DNA of 37,263 bases from a virus: IMG/VR virus record IMGVR_UViG_3300031746_000073, positions 1 through 37,263 of that record; one strand, given 5' to 3'. The notes under the pieces are model-generated. The model searched no databases, was not told the DNA's origin, and worked only from the letters and a program-made list of their open reading frames with translations. Each line of letters starts with the position of its first letter. Within the stretch, counting starts at the first letter, position 1. The translations under genes and the position numbers were made by a program. Positions 21,889 to 33,522 of the stretch are shown here, in pieces.

Positions 21889-23415
21889 TCAAAATGGGAC
21901 AGAGAACACCGGAAGGGTAATACCTGGCGGGGAGGCGAAGGTGATCGAGCCGTGCGGCTCATGCTGGCGCTTGTCGGTACGGACGTAGCGGATCTCTTTG
22001 ATCAGGGTGCGCAGCATGAGCTGCTGGGCGCGGAAGTCGTCGCCGGCCAGGATGGTGGTCATGTTTTCGATTGCGGCGGCGACTTCGGCCAGGGTGACGG
22101 TTTCGGAGGGGGCGGCGAGGTGGCTTTCCAGGATGGCCAGGTCTTCGCTGGTACGGCGCTGCTGTTCTTCGAGGGCTACCAGGTCGGCGAGCAGGGCGGG
22201 GGAGTGGCCCATGTCGGCGATGGCGGATGTAATGCGCCGCACTCGCCCGGTCAGGTCGGCCAGGTCGTTCCGCTTGCGGTTGATGGCTGCACGGGTTTCG
22301 TCACTGGAGGCGGATAGCTGGCGGTTGGCCTCCTGGTAGACGGCAAATATTTTATTGGGGGTGAAGGTGTTGCGCACAGCGAGCAGGACGGCCTGATGCA
22401 GCCGGTCGCGGCCCACGGCCAGGTTGGGGCACGTGCGCAGCCCGGTGTGGTGATCGCAGTTGTAATAGTAGTAGTTGGGGGTGCCGTCCGTGCGGATGGT
22501 GGAATGCCCGTTGACGCCATAACCGCACAATCCGCAGCGCACCAGACCGGAAAGCAGGTAGGGGGAGGCTACGCGGCGCGGGTGGTAGGGCCCGTAGCGC
22601 TGCAGGCTGTCGCTTTCGATGGCCTGGACGATATCCCAGGTGGGTTTGTCGATGAGGGGCTGGCAGAAATCGTCGACGGTGAGGTCGCCAAAGGCCCAGC
22701 GTCCGATATAGATCGGGCTGCGCAGCATGCGACCGTAGGAATAGTGGCGCTGGTAGAGATGGACGGCGCGGTGGATCTCCATGTGGGAGGCCTGGCCAGC
22801 GCGCATCCGGAAGGCGAGCTGCACGAGGGGGGCGGTCTGTTCGTCGGGAACCAGGCGGGAGGCGATGTGGGGTGTGCCGTCGCGGCGCTTGCCCAGGTCG
22901 ACCGGCTCGCGGCGGTAGCCGGCGGGGAGCTGCTTAGCGGGGTAGCAGTGGTGGGCGGTGACGATATAGTACAGGCCGCGGCGGACGTTCCGTGACAAGT
23001 CGCGGGAGAAGGATGCATTCTTCCAGTTTACGACGGATTCGAGCAGGCGGCCGTTCAGGTCGTCCGGGATGGCGTCGGAGATGGAGTAGACGATGTAGCC
23101 GCGCCGCCGCAGATCGGCCAGGTAGAACTGACCGTCGTCGTAATCCCGAGCCAGGCGGGCGTACTCCCAGATCAGCACGCCAACTTCGGGCACTTTTCCA
23201 TCGAGGTAGGCGACCATTTCCAAGAACTGGTTACGGCCGGCGGTCCTGGTACCGGAGGCGGTATCTTTGAAGAGGTGGGTAAGGAGCAGGCCGTGGGCGC
23301 GGCAGTATTCGGCGAGCCTTTCTTCTTGCTGGGGAATGGACAGGTTCTGGGCGTCACCACCGCTGTCACGAAGATAGGCCACCAGGCGAGCGGAAGTGGA
23401 GAAGGGGGAGGTCAT
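21889..23415 (-). CDS. int: Large serine recombinase (integrase)
   Basis: A 508-residue site-specific recombinase for integration and, with a directionality factor, excision. The catalytic serine lies in YLRDS (Ser18), followed by DAQNLSIPQQ, typical of the resolvase domain (about 10-150, with WEYARLARD near 95). A recombinase domain follows (QLPAGYRREPVD, IYIGRW, KPTWDIV), then a zinc ribbon (CGLCGYG, NCDHH, TCPN) and a coiled coil (RAAINRKRNDLADL, ALEEQQRRTSEDL). The ATG at 23415 overlaps the upstream gene's stop (ATGA), so it is chosen over a longer reading to 23478. Confidence 0.95.
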   Translation of the reverse strand: MTSPFSTSARLVAYLRDSGGDAQNLSIPQQEERLAEYCRAHGLLLTHLFKDTASGTRTAGRNQFLEMVAYLDGKVPEVGVLIWEYARLARDYDDGQFYLADLRRRGYIVYSISDAIPDDLNGRLLESVVNWKNASFSRDLSRNVRRGLYYIVTAHHCYPAKQLPAGYRREPVDLGKRRDGTPHIASRLVPDEQTAPLVQLAFRMRAGQASHMEIHRAVHLYQRHYSYGRMLRSPIYIGRWAFGDLTVDDFCQPLIDKPTWDIVQAIESDSLQRYGPYHPRRVASPYLLSGLVRCGLCGYGVNGHSTIRTDGTPNYYYYNCDHHTGLRTCPNLAVGRDRLHQAVLLAVRNTFTPNKIFAVYQEANRQLSASSDETRAAINRKRNDLADLTGRVRRITSAIADMGHSPALLADLVALEEQQRRTSEDLAILESHLAAPSETVTLAEVAAAIENMTTILAGDDFRAQQLMLRTLIKEIRYVRTDKRQHEPHGSITFASPPGITLPVFSVPF

Positions 23416-28745: not shown

Positions 28746-30056
28746 ATGGAAATCGAAGAAACAAAATTCGCAACGGAAATCATCACGATACCCATCGCAG
28801 AAATCAAATCCAACCCTCGCCAGCCGCGGAGCCTCTTCGATGCTGCCGAGATGGCCAGCCTGGTGGAGTCGGTCAAGCAGTATGGCATCCTCCAGCCGCT
28901 GATGGTCACGATAGCGGATGGTGGAATATATGTTCTAATCGCGGGAGAAAGGCGCCTGCGGGCGGCCAGGGAAGCAGGCCTGGAAGAAGTGCCGGCGGTG
29001 ATCTGCCCGGAGGCCTCCGAACGGGAGATGCTCGAGCTGGCGCTGATCGAGAACGTGCAGCGCACCGACCTGAACCCGCTGGAGAAGGCGCGTGCATACC
29101 AGCAGCTCATCGATGAATTCAGACTGACGCATGACGATATAGCCGGGCGGGTTGGCCAGCACCGCAGCACGGTAAGCAACACCCTGCGCCTGCTCAAGTT
29201 GCCGGATGGTATCCAGAAATCCCTGCTCAGCGGCTCGATCAGCGAGCGCCAGGCTGCGGCCTTGCTGGCGCTGTACGACCTGCCCCTACCGCTGCGCAAG
29301 CGCGCGGAGGAATACAACTACGATCCCAGCCTGAAACCTTCGAACGTCGAGGAGAAAGTCAGTCACGGGGCATCCTCCGATTACGTGCGGGACACCATCA
29401 GCCGCATGCTGCTGGCATTTGGAAAGCGGTTGATCTGGAACCCTAACACTGCCTTCGCCGTGCCACCGGAAATGCCCTCCTTATGTGCGGATTGCGGGAT
29501 GCTGATCTACCGCAGCGGTGATAACCTGTGCGGGGAGGAGTTGTGTTTCCAGGTGCGCCTGAACGCCTACAACCGCCAGCGCCTGCCGCTGCCGGAGCCG
29601 ACCCCCACACCGGCGCCGGCGCCCGCTCCACGAGTAAATGTGGAGATCAAGCATTTTAATACTGCTCCTTCAGAGCCGGAAGAAGAAGATATTGAGCCAG
29701 ACACGGAGATCCCCCCAACCAGGCCGGTCATGGGATACAGCACGGTCACCGAGCCGGAACCGGAATCTACGCCCATAGAGGCGCAAGATATGGCGGCTCC
29801 ACCTGCCCCCGCTGCGCCGGTCACCCTGGTTACGGCGCCCCCTCCCGCTGCACCCGACTGGGAGCACGCCACCCTGCTGGTCACCATCACCTATATGCCA
29901 GCCGATGGCAATCCGGACGGCCGGAACGTGTGGGTGGGTTTGCGCGCCAACAACAGCGCCCCGGCGATTCGCATGTGCCGGGAGAAAGAAACGCTGCTGC
30001 CCGGCTACCTGGCCGGTCTGCTGCTCGACATGGAAACCAAATTCAAGGAGACCTGA
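28746..30056 (+). CDS. ParB-like protein of a PRTRC-type cassette
   Basis: The 436-residue protein has a ParB N-terminal CTP/DNA-clamp domain (residues about 12-110): NPRQPRS, GILQPLMV, AGERRLRAAR and ENVQRTDLNPLEKA, then a helix-turn-helix (LTHDDIAGRVGQHRSTVSNTLRLLKLP). A Cys cluster (CADCG, LCGEELC; about 252-273) may bind zinc. After a Pro/Ala-rich linker the last 65 residues form a separate small domain (LLVTITYMP, NVWVGLRAN) that resembles PRTRC protein E in pattern. No ParA is present. It stands first in the coupled run with the ubiquitin-like genes, as the cassette name implies. Confidence 0.9.
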   Translation: MEIEETKFATEIITIPIAEIKSNPRQPRSLFDAAEMASLVESVKQYGILQPLMVTIADGGIYVLIAGERRLRAAREAGLEEVPAVICPEASEREMLELALIENVQRTDLNPLEKARAYQQLIDEFRLTHDDIAGRVGQHRSTVSNTLRLLKLPDGIQKSLLSGSISERQAAALLALYDLPLPLRKRAEEYNYDPSLKPSNVEEKVSHGASSDYVRDTISRMLLAFGKRLIWNPNTAFAVPPEMPSLCADCGMLIYRSGDNLCGEELCFQVRLNAYNRQRLPLPEPTPTPAPAPAPRVNVEIKHFNTAPSEPEEEDIEPDTEIPPTRPVMGYSTVTEPEPESTPIEAQDMAAPPAPAAPVTLVTAPPPAAPDWEHATLLVTITYMPADGNPDGRNVWVGLRANNSAPAIRMCREKETLLPGYLAGLLLDMETKFKET

Positions 30057-30057
30057 A

Positions 30058-30483
30058 ATGTACACAGTCACCATCGAAGGGCAAAAGATTCCGTTACCTG
30101 ACGAGATCGGATCGGATGATGCCAAAGTGCGCCAGGCCCTGGCGCCATACTTCCCGGATGCAGCCAATGCGCTGATCACCCGCACAGTGAAAGACGGCGA
30201 GACCACCATCAACGTGGTCAAGAAAGCGGGCACCAAGGGTTTACATGCAGGCCTGCAGATGCTCCAGGCCTGCACAGGCGGCAAGAACCCGGCAGTGGCG
30301 CTGTATGAGGAGATCAAAGCCAATCCAGAGCCGCTCAGCCCCGAGCAGCTCCTGGTGATGGACAGCCGCATCGAGCAGGCTCTGGACGAGGGCAAGAAGC
30401 AGCGGGATGCCGTGGCGCATGCCGCCAAGCGGCTGATCCGAGCCCGCCCCCAGCCTGCGGAGGCGGTCGTACAGGGATTTTGA
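30058..30483 (+). CDS. Ubiquitin-like protein (PRTRC_C-like) with C-terminal extension
   Basis: The 141-residue product has a beta-grasp-like first part: YTVTIEGQKIPLPD, then a helix DAKVRQALAPYFPDAANA and a strand INVVKKAGTKG ending at Gly61. PRTRC protein C (Prok_Ub) of about 65-70 aa normally ends in this G-T-K-G. Here 80 more residues follow, mostly helical (EPLSPEQLLVMDSRIEQAL and AVAHAAKRLIRARP). If Gly61 is the conjugating residue, the extension must be cleaved, a natural task for the JAB protein encoded downstream. The ATG is 1 bp after the parB stop. Confidence 0.75.
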   Translation: MYTVTIEGQKIPLPDEIGSDDAKVRQALAPYFPDAANALITRTVKDGETTINVVKKAGTKGLHAGLQMLQACTGGKNPAVALYEEIKANPEPLSPEQLLVMDSRIEQALDEGKKQRDAVAHAAKRLIRARPQPAEAVVQGF

Positions 30484-31406
30484 TGAAACTCACATTCGAT
30501 CAGGTCAGGCAGGAGCTGGACGGCCTGCGCCAGGTCAGTTACGTAGAGGCCGAGTCGCTCCTCGAGCGCGCCCAGGCGACCACCACCCACGCCTCGCTGG
30601 TGGCTGCATACGCCCCCCAACACCTGGGGGAAATCCGCGGCGTGAGCCTGCTCGAAGAGCCTGGGACGGATATGAACCCCCTGGAAGAGATTGTCTATAA
30701 TGTGCTATCCAGCCTGTTCCCCTGTAACGTCGATTCGCTGTTTCAGGAAATTCTGGACGGCGAGGCTGTACCCGGCCTGATCATCGATCCCGTGTTCAAT
30801 TTCAGCAGTGAAGAATTCGGCGATATGGTCATGGATCCGGAGAATTTCGGCAGCAGCGAATTGAGCAGCCTGCTGATCTTCGTGCGCTACCTGGGTCTCG
30901 TTATCGATGCGCCCTATTTCGAGCTGGCTGCTAAGTATTTCGGCTGGCCGGTGGATGCCCCGGAATGCTGCACGACCGCGGAGAGTATCGATACGGTAGA
31001 TATGCCACGTTTCTATGCCCTGCTCCAGGAGCACAGCCTGGACGAATTCATGCTGCCTTTCCAATGCAGCGCTCAGGAAACCGGCAATATCTTCCTGGAC
31101 TGGACGCTGGATGAAGCCTATAACGAATACATCCCTTACAGCATGGCATCCATCCGCGATCTGGTCCATGAATGGGAGTCGGCGCGGCCGCGGGTCGAGC
31201 AGATGAAGGCTGCCGCAGGACGGTTCCAAAAGGACCGCTGGATCGCTTCCAGGATTATCGAGCTGTGGGATCGATGCATCCGCTACAAAGATGGGCGAGT
31301 GCCGCGCACCCTGGTCGAGATGTGGGGCATTGATGCGGATGGGGATGTCGAGGTGGTAGCGGATGAATTCTACGGACCGGTAGGCGTGGAGGAAGCCGAT
31401 GATTGA
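30483..31406 (+). CDS. Acidic protein of the cassette, possible PRTRC_F equivalent
   Basis: The 307-residue product is acidic and helical, with VSLLEEPGTDMNPLEEIVYNVL, repeated Phe/Ser/Glu segments (FNFSSEEFGDMV), CCTTAESIDTVDMPRFYALL and a more basic C-terminal part (GRFQKDRWIASRIIELWDRC). I cannot match a motif with certainty. Size and position between Ubl and E2 genes fit PRTRC protein F, a conserved part of such cassettes with unknown role. Start and previous stop share a base (TGATG). Confidence 0.55.
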   Translation: MKLTFDQVRQELDGLRQVSYVEAESLLERAQATTTHASLVAAYAPQHLGEIRGVSLLEEPGTDMNPLEEIVYNVLSSLFPCNVDSLFQEILDGEAVPGLIIDPVFNFSSEEFGDMVMDPENFGSSELSSLLIFVRYLGLVIDAPYFELAAKYFGWPVDAPECCTTAESIDTVDMPRFYALLQEHSLDEFMLPFQCSAQETGNIFLDWTLDEAYNEYIPYSMASIRDLVHEWESARPRVEQMKAAAGRFQKDRWIASRIIELWDRCIRYKDGRVPRTLVEMWGIDADGDVEVVADEFYGPVGVEEADD

Positions 31407-32064
31407 ATACATCCCCTCACCACAGTTCAAGGCTCTCGCATCGTTGTTCTTCCTGGACAACGGTCATTACCTTTTCCGCTTCCTGGAGAATGGGAAAGAA
31501 GCCTCCAAGTTTGTCACATCCGTGGACGTGGCTGCTGCCTTCAGCATGAAAGAGATCGACACCGGCTGGCTGCCGGCGGGGATCGTGCGCTGCGGCCAGA
31601 ATGCAGCCGGGCCGTGGTTCGTTTACTCCACGCCTCCCCAGAAGGTAAAGATATCGCTGGATGCAGGCATCCGGATGGTGGTCCCGGCGCCCCGCCTGGC
31701 GCTGATCGGCAGCGGGAACGCGTATCGCATGGCAGCCATGCGTGAGAAGCACTTCCGGGCTGAAGCGCTTATCTATCACGCCCCATTCCCCAACATTTAC
31801 CCGGACGGGCGTATCTGCTGGGGAACCAACACCCCGCCCGAGGCCCTGCCCGAGAATGCACGGAAGGCCTGGGAGCTGTTCTTCGAGTCGCCCTTCAACG
31901 CCGATTTGACCGGCAATAAATCGAAGCTGCACTCGAACGACGTGCGGGATATGCTGCGCGAGCTGGAGCGGCGCCAGGCCAGGAGCTATCCCGCCGATGA
32001 TTTGCTCTCGATGAATAATGATGTCGAGGGACTGTTGAGAAAAGCGATCGGAGGTAACGCATGA
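31399..32064 (+). CDS. E2-like protein (PRTRC protein B/Prok-E2_D)
   Basis: The 221-residue product carries the signature of prokaryotic E2 family D: LIYHAPFPNIYPDGRICWGTN, i.e. an H-A-P-F-P-N turn followed by a G-R-I-C-W-G element with Cys140 as candidate thioester-forming residue. The earlier part is beta-rich with IRMVVPAPRLALIG, as in PRTRC_B. It overlaps both neighbours by 8 and 4 nt. Function: accept the Ubl from the ThiF protein and pass it to a target. Not tested in any such phage as far as I know. Confidence 0.8.
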   Translation: MIEYIPSPQFKALASLFFLDNGHYLFRFLENGKEASKFVTSVDVAAAFSMKEIDTGWLPAGIVRCGQNAAGPWFVYSTPPQKVKISLDAGIRMVVPAPRLALIGSGNAYRMAAMREKHFRAEALIYHAPFPNIYPDGRICWGTNTPPEALPENARKAWELFFESPFNADLTGNKSKLHSNDVRDMLRELERRQARSYPADDLLSMNNDVEGLLRKAIGGNA

Positions 32065-32732
32065 TCGTCAGTCATATTTTCGCCAAAACAACAGAGCTGG
32101 GTCCGATCTCGGAAGGCGATTTATATCAATATGTAGTCGCAGCGAATGGGGTCTTTTTACGGGCAGAGCGGCCAGGCTTGAAAGCCATGATCTGGGTGGC
32201 ATCGACCAGCGCGCCGATCCGAGGCCTGGTCGTGTTGACCTCCTACGTGCATCTGACCGAGAACCGGGTACCTGTGCGCATCACGGCGCGCATGGTCGAG
32301 ATGGCATATCACATGCAGGGACGCGAGATCCTGTTCTACCTGGAGCCGGTCCCGGTGCGTTGGATCGAGGCCGATACCCATACCGCTATGGTCAGCAGCC
32401 GGCCTGAAAATCCATGGCGCTTGCGAGTGCCCGAGCAGATTGCAACACCCGCCAGCGTCAAGCCGGTCAATCCCGGCGACGGGGCGGAGGCGCTGATCGA
32501 GCTGCATTCTCACCATGGCATGGGAGCGTTTTTTTCCAGCATGGACTCCCGCGATGAGACCGGGTTTCGAATTTATGCAGTCCTTGGGAATCTGGATTCA
32601 ACGCCGATGATCAACGTAAGGGTAGGCATCTATGGCAACTTCTGCGGTATCCCGGCTGACATGGTTTTCGAGCTGCCGGTGGGCCTGGTGGATGCTTATA
32701 TCTTAGGGAGCACTTATGGCGATGACCGTTGA
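32061..32732 (+). CDS. JAB/JAMM metallopeptidase (PRTRC protein A)
   Basis: A 223-residue protein with a clear zinc motif, IELHSHHGMGAFFSSMDSRDE: His149 and His151, then Ser159 and Asp162 as in H-x-H-x(7)-S-x2-D. The expected catalytic Glu should lie in the N-terminal half. The C-terminal part (RIYAVLGNLD, MINVRVGIYG) follows the JAB fold. JAMM peptidases cut after the terminal Gly of ubiquitin-like proteins, so this is the candidate for maturing the extended Ubl and for removing it from targets. Confidence 0.87.
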   Translation: MIVSHIFAKTTELGPISEGDLYQYVVAANGVFLRAERPGLKAMIWVASTSAPIRGLVVLTSYVHLTENRVPVRITARMVEMAYHMQGREILFYLEPVPVRWIEADTHTAMVSSRPENPWRLRVPEQIATPASVKPVNPGDGAEALIELHSHHGMGAFFSSMDSRDETGFRIYAVLGNLDSTPMINVRVGIYGNFCGIPADMVFELPVGLVDAYILGSTYGDDR

Positions 32733-33522
32733 TCTATCCTACTCCCAGGCCTGCAAGCTGCTGCTGCCGTCCTATGAGTCGGTCAACCTGAGCCTGGTCG
32801 GCTGCGGAGGGACCGGGTCATGGCTGGCGCCGTCGGTGGTGCGCGTGGGGCGATTGCTGCATGAGAAATTCCGGAAGCAGGTGCTGATCCACTTTATCGA
32901 TCCGGACGATATCGAGCCCAAGAACGTTTACCGGCAGAACTTCTGTGACGCCGAGGTGGGACGGAACAAAGCCGTTTCCCTGGCTTACCGCTACGGCCTG
33001 GCCTGGGGCATGGAGATCATGGCCATCCCCAAGCCGTTCGAAAAGGGCATGTTTCCCAGGGATATGGAAATGAACATCCTGATCGGATGCGTGGACCGGG
33101 CCAGCGGCAGGCGAGAGTTAGCGCAATACATATCTCATGGACCACGTCGATGGTGGCTGGACTGCGGGAATTTCAAAGCTGCTGGGCAGGTGCTGCTGGG
33201 CAGCGGGGATCATTTCCGAGAATCGGGCGAGCTGCCCGGGTACTGCTCCTGGCTGCCCAGCCCGTCGAAACAGCATCCCGAGCTGCTCCAGGAAGAGCCA
33301 TGGATCCCGGAGAGCGAGGCAGACCTATCCTGCGCCGACCTGGCGATGCGTGACAGCCAGTCCCTGGCGATCAACCAACGCGTGGCGGCGGAGGCCAGCG
33401 ACTACCTGGTGCGCATGCTGCTGACCAGGGATTTACAGAAGATGGCAACCTACATCGACCTGGCCAGTGGATCGAGCCGGTCGGTGTATATCACCAGGGA
33501 GAATGTGAAAATTGGAGGATGA
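32716..33522 (+). CDS. ThiF/E1-like adenylating protein of the cassette
   Basis: A 268-residue E1-like protein. The nucleotide loop is VGCGGTGSWL (residues 29-37), followed by IDPDDIEPKNVYRQNF (Asp62, Asn70, Arg73, Gln74) and GRNKA (Lys85). Asp127 in CVDRAS is the Mg-ATP residue. LDCGN and, near 206, DLSCADLAMRDSQSLAIN match the PRTRC ThiF pattern with a possible catalytic Cys206. It would adenylate the exposed C terminus of the Ubl. Overlap with the JAB gene is 17 nt, so it is one operon. Confidence 0.9.
   Translation: MAMTVDLSYSQACKLLLPSYESVNLSLVGCGGTGSWLAPSVVRVGRLLHEKFRKQVLIHFIDPDDIEPKNVYRQNFCDAEVGRNKAVSLAYRYGLAWGMEIMAIPKPFEKGMFPRDMEMNILIGCVDRASGRRELAQYISHGPRRWWLDCGNFKAAGQVLLGSGDHFRESGELPGYCSWLPSPSKQHPELLQEEPWIPESEADLSCADLAMRDSQSLAINQRVAAEASDYLVRMLLTRDLQKMATYIDLASGSSRSVYITRENVKIGG

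Follow-up and report, generated by a model that had tools for sequence, protein, structure and literature searches.

Results

A phage-borne cassette of ubiquitin-like conjugation genes

We analysed the complete IMG/VR virus record IMGVR_UViG_3300031746_000073 (37,263 bases; hereafter the window), in which six plus-strand genes at 28746−33522, overlapping or touching one another, encode in order a ParB-like protein, a ubiquitin-like protein (Ubl), a protein here called X, an E2-like enzyme, a JAB metalloprotease and an E1-like enzyme. An earlier interpretation made from the letters alone (the sequence-only reading) had placed all six in one overlapping run, and each was found where it had been placed. 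The Ubl stop codon overlaps the ATG of X in the sequence TGATG at 30481−30485. The features, all on the plus strand, are as follows.

28746..30056, plus: ParB-like protein of 436 residues with ParB_N/Srx CTPase-type motifs GERRLRAA and ENVQRTDLNPLE, a ParB helix-turn-helix (HTH) and a fused C-terminal E-position domain (PF02195, 1.5e-26; PF17762 HTH_ParB, 2.7e-24; TIGR00180, 1.6e-45)
29859..30044, plus: E-position domain of the ParB fusion, residues 372−433 (profile over 47 proteins)
30058..30240, plus: Ubl core, residues 1−61, beta-grasp with AGTKG end (PRTRC_C profile match; model predicted local distance difference test score (pLDDT) 86)
30229..30240, plus: GTKG, residues 58−61, predicted mature C terminus and cleavage site (relatives stop exactly there)
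30241..30483, plus: helical tail domain of the putative Ubl precursor, residues 62−141, ending in GF (split and fused forms in relatives; helices in the model)
30483..31406, plus: X, PRTRC_F-position protein, all-helical, motif TGNxxLD (model pLDDT 85, predicted template-modelling score 0.78)
31399..32064, plus: E2-like enzyme, Prok-E2_D, predicted catalytic Cys140 at codon 31816−31818 (PF14460, 3.7e-25; TIGR03737 PRTRC_B, 9.2e-17)
32061..32732, plus: JAB/JAMM metalloprotease, E89 and H149-S-H151-x7-S159-x2-D162 (TIGR03735 PRTRC_A, 3.1e-15)
32716..33522, plus: E1-like ThiF-fold adenylyltransferase, GCGGTGS loop, Cys206 in LSCA (TIGR03736 PRTRC_ThiF, 5.2e-38; PF00899 ThiF, 4e-10)

Conservation of the three enzymes was counted in alignments of 31−34 diverse relatives per enzyme. 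The E2 residues P129, N132, C140 and G142 were invariant, with Cys140, which sits in the motif APFPNIYPDGRICWG, present in all 34 relatives aligned. The JAMM motif of the JAB protein consists of Glu89 and HSHHGMGAFFSSMD (HxHx7SxxD), and E89, H149, H151, S159 and D162 were invariant across 31 relatives, as were the E1 GxGGTG loop, R73, K85, D127 and C206 across 32. Conservation of catalytic residues, proposed as a check in the sequence-only reading, thus held for all three enzymes. Because these residues were invariant over 31−34 relatives, the cassette is not a chance resemblance, and their retention in such diverse proteins argues for an enzymatically active system under selection. Degenerate cargo without present function might be suspected from the patchy distribution of the cassette (of the genomes scanned from two phyla, 11 of 400 and 11 of 386 had a match to profile X); we found this extremely improbable given the catalytic invariance over deep divergence and a gene order conserved in dozens of lineages.

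The Protein Data Bank (PDB) relatives of the E1 profile were UBA6, UBA5, ThiF and BubCD (BubCD at 5e-5), and PDB sequence searches with the E2, JAB, Ubl and X profiles returned no significant relatives. The ThiF-fold E1 and the C-terminal glycine of a trimmed Ubl would also suit a sulfur carrier similar to ThiS, MoaD or Urm1 instead of protein conjugation. This explanation is very unlikely in our view, since the cassette encodes a full E2 with an invariant Cys, no rhodanese or cofactor genes were seen in it, and the terminal motif of the Ubl is a single KG rather than GG. Protein X matched no family in any profile library scanned, and Foldseek with the X model matched no solved fold; X genes form a tandem pair within four of the related cassettes (L035, L036, L037 and L119).

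Relation to PRTRC systems and operon type 6d

PRTRC systems (NCBIfam TIGR03734−TIGR03742), carried by plasmids of Burkholderiales and others, have the same gene order as the window: ParB, E-position protein, Ubl, small protein, F-position protein, E2, JAB and E1. The Ubl, E2, JAB and E1 of the window are homologous to PRTRC C, B, A and ThiF, and the canonical Ubl ends GTKG, whereas the window Ubl carries an 80-residue tail and the window E-position domain is fused to ParB. NCBIfam matches were strongly significant but below cut-off for PRTRC_ThiF (130.8 bits versus 144.75), PRTRC_A (56.2 versus 101.8) and PRTRC_B (61.2 versus 131.45); TIGR03734 PRTRC_parB gave 87.8 bits versus a cut-off of 278.6, the window ParB scoring better as a generic ParB. 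PRTRC_E and PRTRC_F had no match in the record, where positional counterparts of both are present, and PRTRC_D had none in this record, which may be incomplete. Identity of X with PRTRC_F was rejected, as hhalign detected no homology. In the E1 tree, canonical PRTRC plasmids and Burkholderia phage BgVeeders33 formed one clade (100/100), and the window fell in a separate clade of 56 rows (96/95).

The sequence-only reading had taken the locus for a full PRTRC cassette and proposed a search against PRTRC models. An E1-E2-JAB-Ubl set of PRTRC type with ParB was indeed present, with significant ThiF, A and B matches; the label "full" was not sustained. Because of the sub-cut-off scores, the separate E1 clade, E- and F-position proteins without detectable homology to their PRTRC counterparts, and the missing PRTRC_D, we file the cassette as PRTRC-like and not strict PRTRC. 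Judged by its sequence relationships, it is a PRTRC-like sister branch belonging to operon type 6d. The available part of the account by Iyer, Burroughs and Aravind 2006 (PMC1779556) gives type 6d as a small Ubl with terminal Gly, a largely helical protein, an E2 with a conserved Cys, a JAB with an extra N-terminal domain, and an E1; the window has a Ubl, a helical protein, a Cys-containing E2, a JAB and an E1 in one operon, and its Ubl has the tail in addition. That part of the account does not mention any member carried by a phage, nor a helical tail fused to the Ubl, tandem Ubls of this type or an E-position protein. Phage BgVeeders33 (OK665841) encodes complete canonical PRTRC C, E, F, B and A, all above cut-off, and a ThiF; unlike the window it belongs to the canonical PRTRC clade and has no ParB fusion, and its proteins are annotated as hypothetical.

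The Ubl is predicted to be made as a precursor

The GTKG that the sequence-only reading had noticed in the Ubl is present at residues 58−61, with the refinement that it is internal to the open reading frame (ORF; 30058−30483) and followed by 80 residues. The window protein itself had no Pfam or NCBIfam match, and direct TIGR03738 (PRTRC_C) matches were weak and found for 7 of 27 Ubl family members; a profile-profile comparison of the Ubl core family with PRTRC_C gave a probability of 97.7 (E 9e-12). The beta-grasp part of the relatives ends in a KG motif, mostly AGTKG, and canonical PRTRC_C proteins end at GTKG or a few residues beyond. Relatives encode the Ubl as an ORF ending at KG with the tail domain as the next gene, with the tail fused as in the window, with a short peptide extension, or as tandem Ubls. 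There are four tandem units in Bacillus phage KLEB27-3 (L006, 667−1416), three in Vibrio phage D69 (L004, 2388−3179) and two in Anaerolineae (L097), and those of L006 and L004 each end GVKG or GTKG.

The occurrence of residues beyond KG paralleled that of the protease. At least one residue follows KG in 51 of 56 lineages, and a JAMM-intact JAB was present in 51 of these 51. The Ubl ends exactly at KG in 5 of 56 lineages, which include the only two JAB-less cassettes (L018 and L032); their Ubl ORFs stop at PKG, so that no trimming would be needed, and no JAB was detectable. The association of JAB absence with a KG-terminal Ubl had a Fisher p of about 0.0065, calculated by hand and involving two JAB-less lineages that are related to each other. 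As a separate observation, the PRTRC_C of Pelobacter propionicus plasmid pPRO1 (L109) ends GTKA rather than GTKG, and its cassette has no PRTRC_A.

An AlphaFold2 model of the putative precursor showed a beta-grasp domain, a low-confidence linker containing GTKG, and a helical tail. Foldseek with the whole precursor gave no significant match; a structural aligner ranked ubiquitin first for the Ubl model with a middling Z of about 5, placing model residues 1−61 on ubiquitin 2−76 and G61 on ubiquitin G76. Taken together, the precursor forms, the JAMM co-occurrence, the model and the alignment of G61 with G76 make a predicted JAB cleavage after G61 well supported at the level of architecture, and the apparent production of the Ubl as a precursor is new here.

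The tail domain has GF at its C terminus in 40 of 46 lineages, and tail proteins end in a conserved PxGF-type C terminus (30466−30483 in the window). Small unannotated ORFs between PRTRC_C and F (L103, L104 and L113) end similarly (IPSPDMVPPCF, LPDIELPIVF) and have no profile homology; identity of the tail with the small PRTRC ORF was rejected, as hhalign gave nothing. The PADLOC model C3a152, "Type III-C specific", matched Ubl residues 1−87 (30058−30318) at 2.1e-16, which suggests that a relative is located next to a type III-C CRISPR locus elsewhere.

The protein upstream of the Ubl appears modular

The gene preceding the Ubl carries an E-position domain of ~62 residues. In the window a Pro/Ala/Glu-rich linker separates this domain from the rest of ParB, whose C terminus it forms; other phages have it attached to a DUF3102 protein or to a large protein whose tail is rich in lysine. 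In cyanobacteria, Chloroflexota and Acidobacteriota the domain is free and ends in QISLF, QLTLF, QLSLF, QMALF, QMGLF or similar, and QL[S/D]LF is an established clamp-binding consensus (PMC9690074, PMC12309361). The more general QxxLF occurred in 13 of 15 non-ParB proteins with the E-position domain (at the C terminus in 10) versus 20 of 1837 background genes (p about 7e-17, for lineages that share ancestry), and terminal QxxLF occurred in 0 of 17 ParB-type lineages. To check the pattern on new data, we examined 13 more proteins encoded at this position, in genomes retrieved afterwards: the motif was terminal in nine, 24 residues from the end in one, internal in one and lacking in two. The ends of canonical PRTRC_E are related but weaker (for example DDLQLF or DLASLL) and were left out of the motif counts. 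Across the sequences compared, ParB fusion and the terminal clamp motif are mutually exclusive at the E position; the upstream protein thus appears to be modular, either fused to ParB or free with a putative clamp motif, and this is new here.

Replication genes were frequent neighbours: at least nine lineages have dnaN close to the cassette and five have dnaX, and dnaN comes before canonical PRTRC_E on two plasmids. At cyanobacterial loci L079−L095 and L107, element-borne dnaN and dnaX adjoin the cassette, and several further neighbours also end in QLSLF-type motifs.

ParB family proteins form CTP-dependent sliding clamps, and both ParB/Noc CTP-binding motifs, GxRRxxA and ENxQR, are recognisable in the window ParB (GERRLRA and ENVQRTDLNPLE). 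The tie to ParB suggested by the sequence-only reading gains support from the ParB C-terminal domain, which occurs in relatives without ParB but with the clamp-binding motif. ParB could itself be the main player, in segregation or the upkeep of a plasmid-like prophage, and be switched by reversible Ubl modification: its gene is the first of the six, the E-position domain is fused to it, and canonical PRTRC likewise begins with ParB. We consider a partition role decidedly unlikely, because there was no ParA among the scanned window proteins and neither PRTRC_D nor a canonical parS was found, the serine integrase of the phage suggests chromosomal integration, and ParB is replaced in many relatives.

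Genomic context and distribution

The record opens with genes for both terminase subunits (small and large), the portal, a head protease and the major capsid protein; tape measure and spike come next. Lysogeny-type genes on the minus strand at 21889−24330, a large serine recombinase (integrase) and a Cro/C1-type HTH repressor, likely form a lysogeny module. The head and tail genes together with the serine integrase and the HTH repressor identify a temperate tailed phage, in agreement with the sequence-only reading, which had also placed the cassette among early genes: it lies in the early/replication region, directly upstream of genes for a small zinc-ribbon protein and a RecE/Cas4-like nuclease. 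Because the window and Anaerolineaceae contig L047 have a capsid family in common, the phage host is probably within Anaerolineaceae. A perfect 18-nucleotide inverted repeat with a 6-nucleotide loop lies within the RecE/Cas4-like nuclease gene (34166−34207), and a perfect 14-nucleotide inverted repeat, CCTGCCTGCAGGCG/CGCCTGCAGGCAGG (27077−27112), immediately precedes gene 27125; the latter is possibly an operator, a terminator or a ParB site.

Profile scans recovered 38 viral contigs, as well as 57 genome contigs that came mainly from Anaerolineaceae and cyanobacteria; the former carry the cassette in prophages, the latter on plasmids. With E2 alone, a scan of viral contigs gave no matches. 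A related E1 occurs on 375 plasmids. Isolated phages with divergent cassettes were Burkholderia BgVeeders33, Salmonella Arash, Vibrio D69 and Bacillus KLEB27-3. At least 15 viral contigs or prophages have a terminase or portal gene beside the cassette; one of them lies in Leptolinea sp. HRD-7, whose genome is complete.

Prophage and plasmid locations are typical of defence genes, and an anti-phage role is described for related bacterial Ubl systems (PMC10097602), with Bil cited in PMC13373217. The cassette could accordingly serve defence or counter-defence: as Bil and CBASS systems do, it would tag structural or effector proteins, either of the host or of rival phages, and so protect the lysogen or block host immunity, with an incidental ParB link. 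This seems unlikely to us, since the cassette occupies the early/replication region beside the RecE/Cas4-like nuclease and not a cargo site, its neighbours in other elements are dnaN, dnaX and SSB rather than defence genes, and PADLOC system models match it only through the common E1 fold and the one Ubl-like "Type III-C specific" entry.

Discussion

We lean, somewhat beyond an even chance, towards a DNA- or replisome-tethered Ubl conjugation system encoded by the phage. The Ubl would be translated as a precursor and cut by JAB after GTKG (G61), which would free the helical tail and expose a C-terminal glycine. Going by family chemistry and the invariant residues, E1 would adenylate this glycine and pass the Ubl to its Cys206, then to Cys140 of E2 and on to target lysines, and JAB may also remove the Ubl from targets. 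The E-position domain would bring the machinery to DNA, through the fusion to the DNA-binding ParB in the window and through QxxLF docking on DnaN in relatives. Because it would recruit to ParB or the clamp, the likely substrates, by analogy with PCNA-coupled ubiquitination, would be proteins at replicating or ParB-coated phage DNA, such as replisome, clamp and recombination proteins or ParB itself.

Several points weigh against this tethering model. The window cassette has no QL[S/D]LF or QxxLF clamp motif, and the window contains no canonical parS within 3 mismatches. At the E position, about one in three lineages shows neither ParB nor a terminal clamp motif; most of these are phage cassettes, in which the E-position proteins are acidic or lysine-rich. 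The clamp-motif pattern was noticed before the statistical test, and the lineages share ancestry. Finally, the E-position domain was rejected as a recognisable PRTRC_E homologue, hhalign finding no profile homology.

Among known systems, Bub, Bil and CBASS Cap2 have a related E1 fold (PADLOC E1-E2, 1e-8) and likewise combine conjugation machinery with a protease. Cap2 of CBASS has an E1-E2 fusion, whereas E1 and E2 are separate genes in the window and the E2 is of family D; these systems associate with immune regulators, whereas the window cassette associates with ParB and replication genes. Eukaryotic ubiquitin precursors and PCNA-coupled ubiquitination offer an analogy in their precursor fusions, poly-Ubl forms and clamp recruitment by a short terminal peptide; unlike them, the cassette contains no recognised E3 or proteasome, and the recruitment parts are not homologous. 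A broader proposal, which we advance tentatively and hold at short of an even chance, is that PRTRC-like systems are clamp-directed protein modifiers of mobile elements, in which an adaptor would tether Ubl conjugation to the sliding clamp, or to ParB in these phages, and so tag the proteins present where the element's DNA is replicating. Such a system would be a prokaryotic counterpart of PCNA-coupled ubiquitination, its poly-Ubl precursors being matured by a JAMM protease.

PRTRC systems have been annotated for years and to our knowledge have no established function. Our literature search found no paper that reports PRTRC in phages or connects it with a clamp, several term matches being plasmid or promoter names (pRtr..., PRtrc). 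The terminal clamp motif of relatives, exclusive with the ParB fusion, offers a concrete and cheap hypothesis of where these systems may act, namely at DNA clamps on plasmids and phages. Since bare, briefly extended, domain-fused and tandem Ubls all occur naturally, the protease step can be tested directly, and the compact viral set, with one each of Ubl, E1, E2 and protease, would be a convenient minimal model of ubiquitination.

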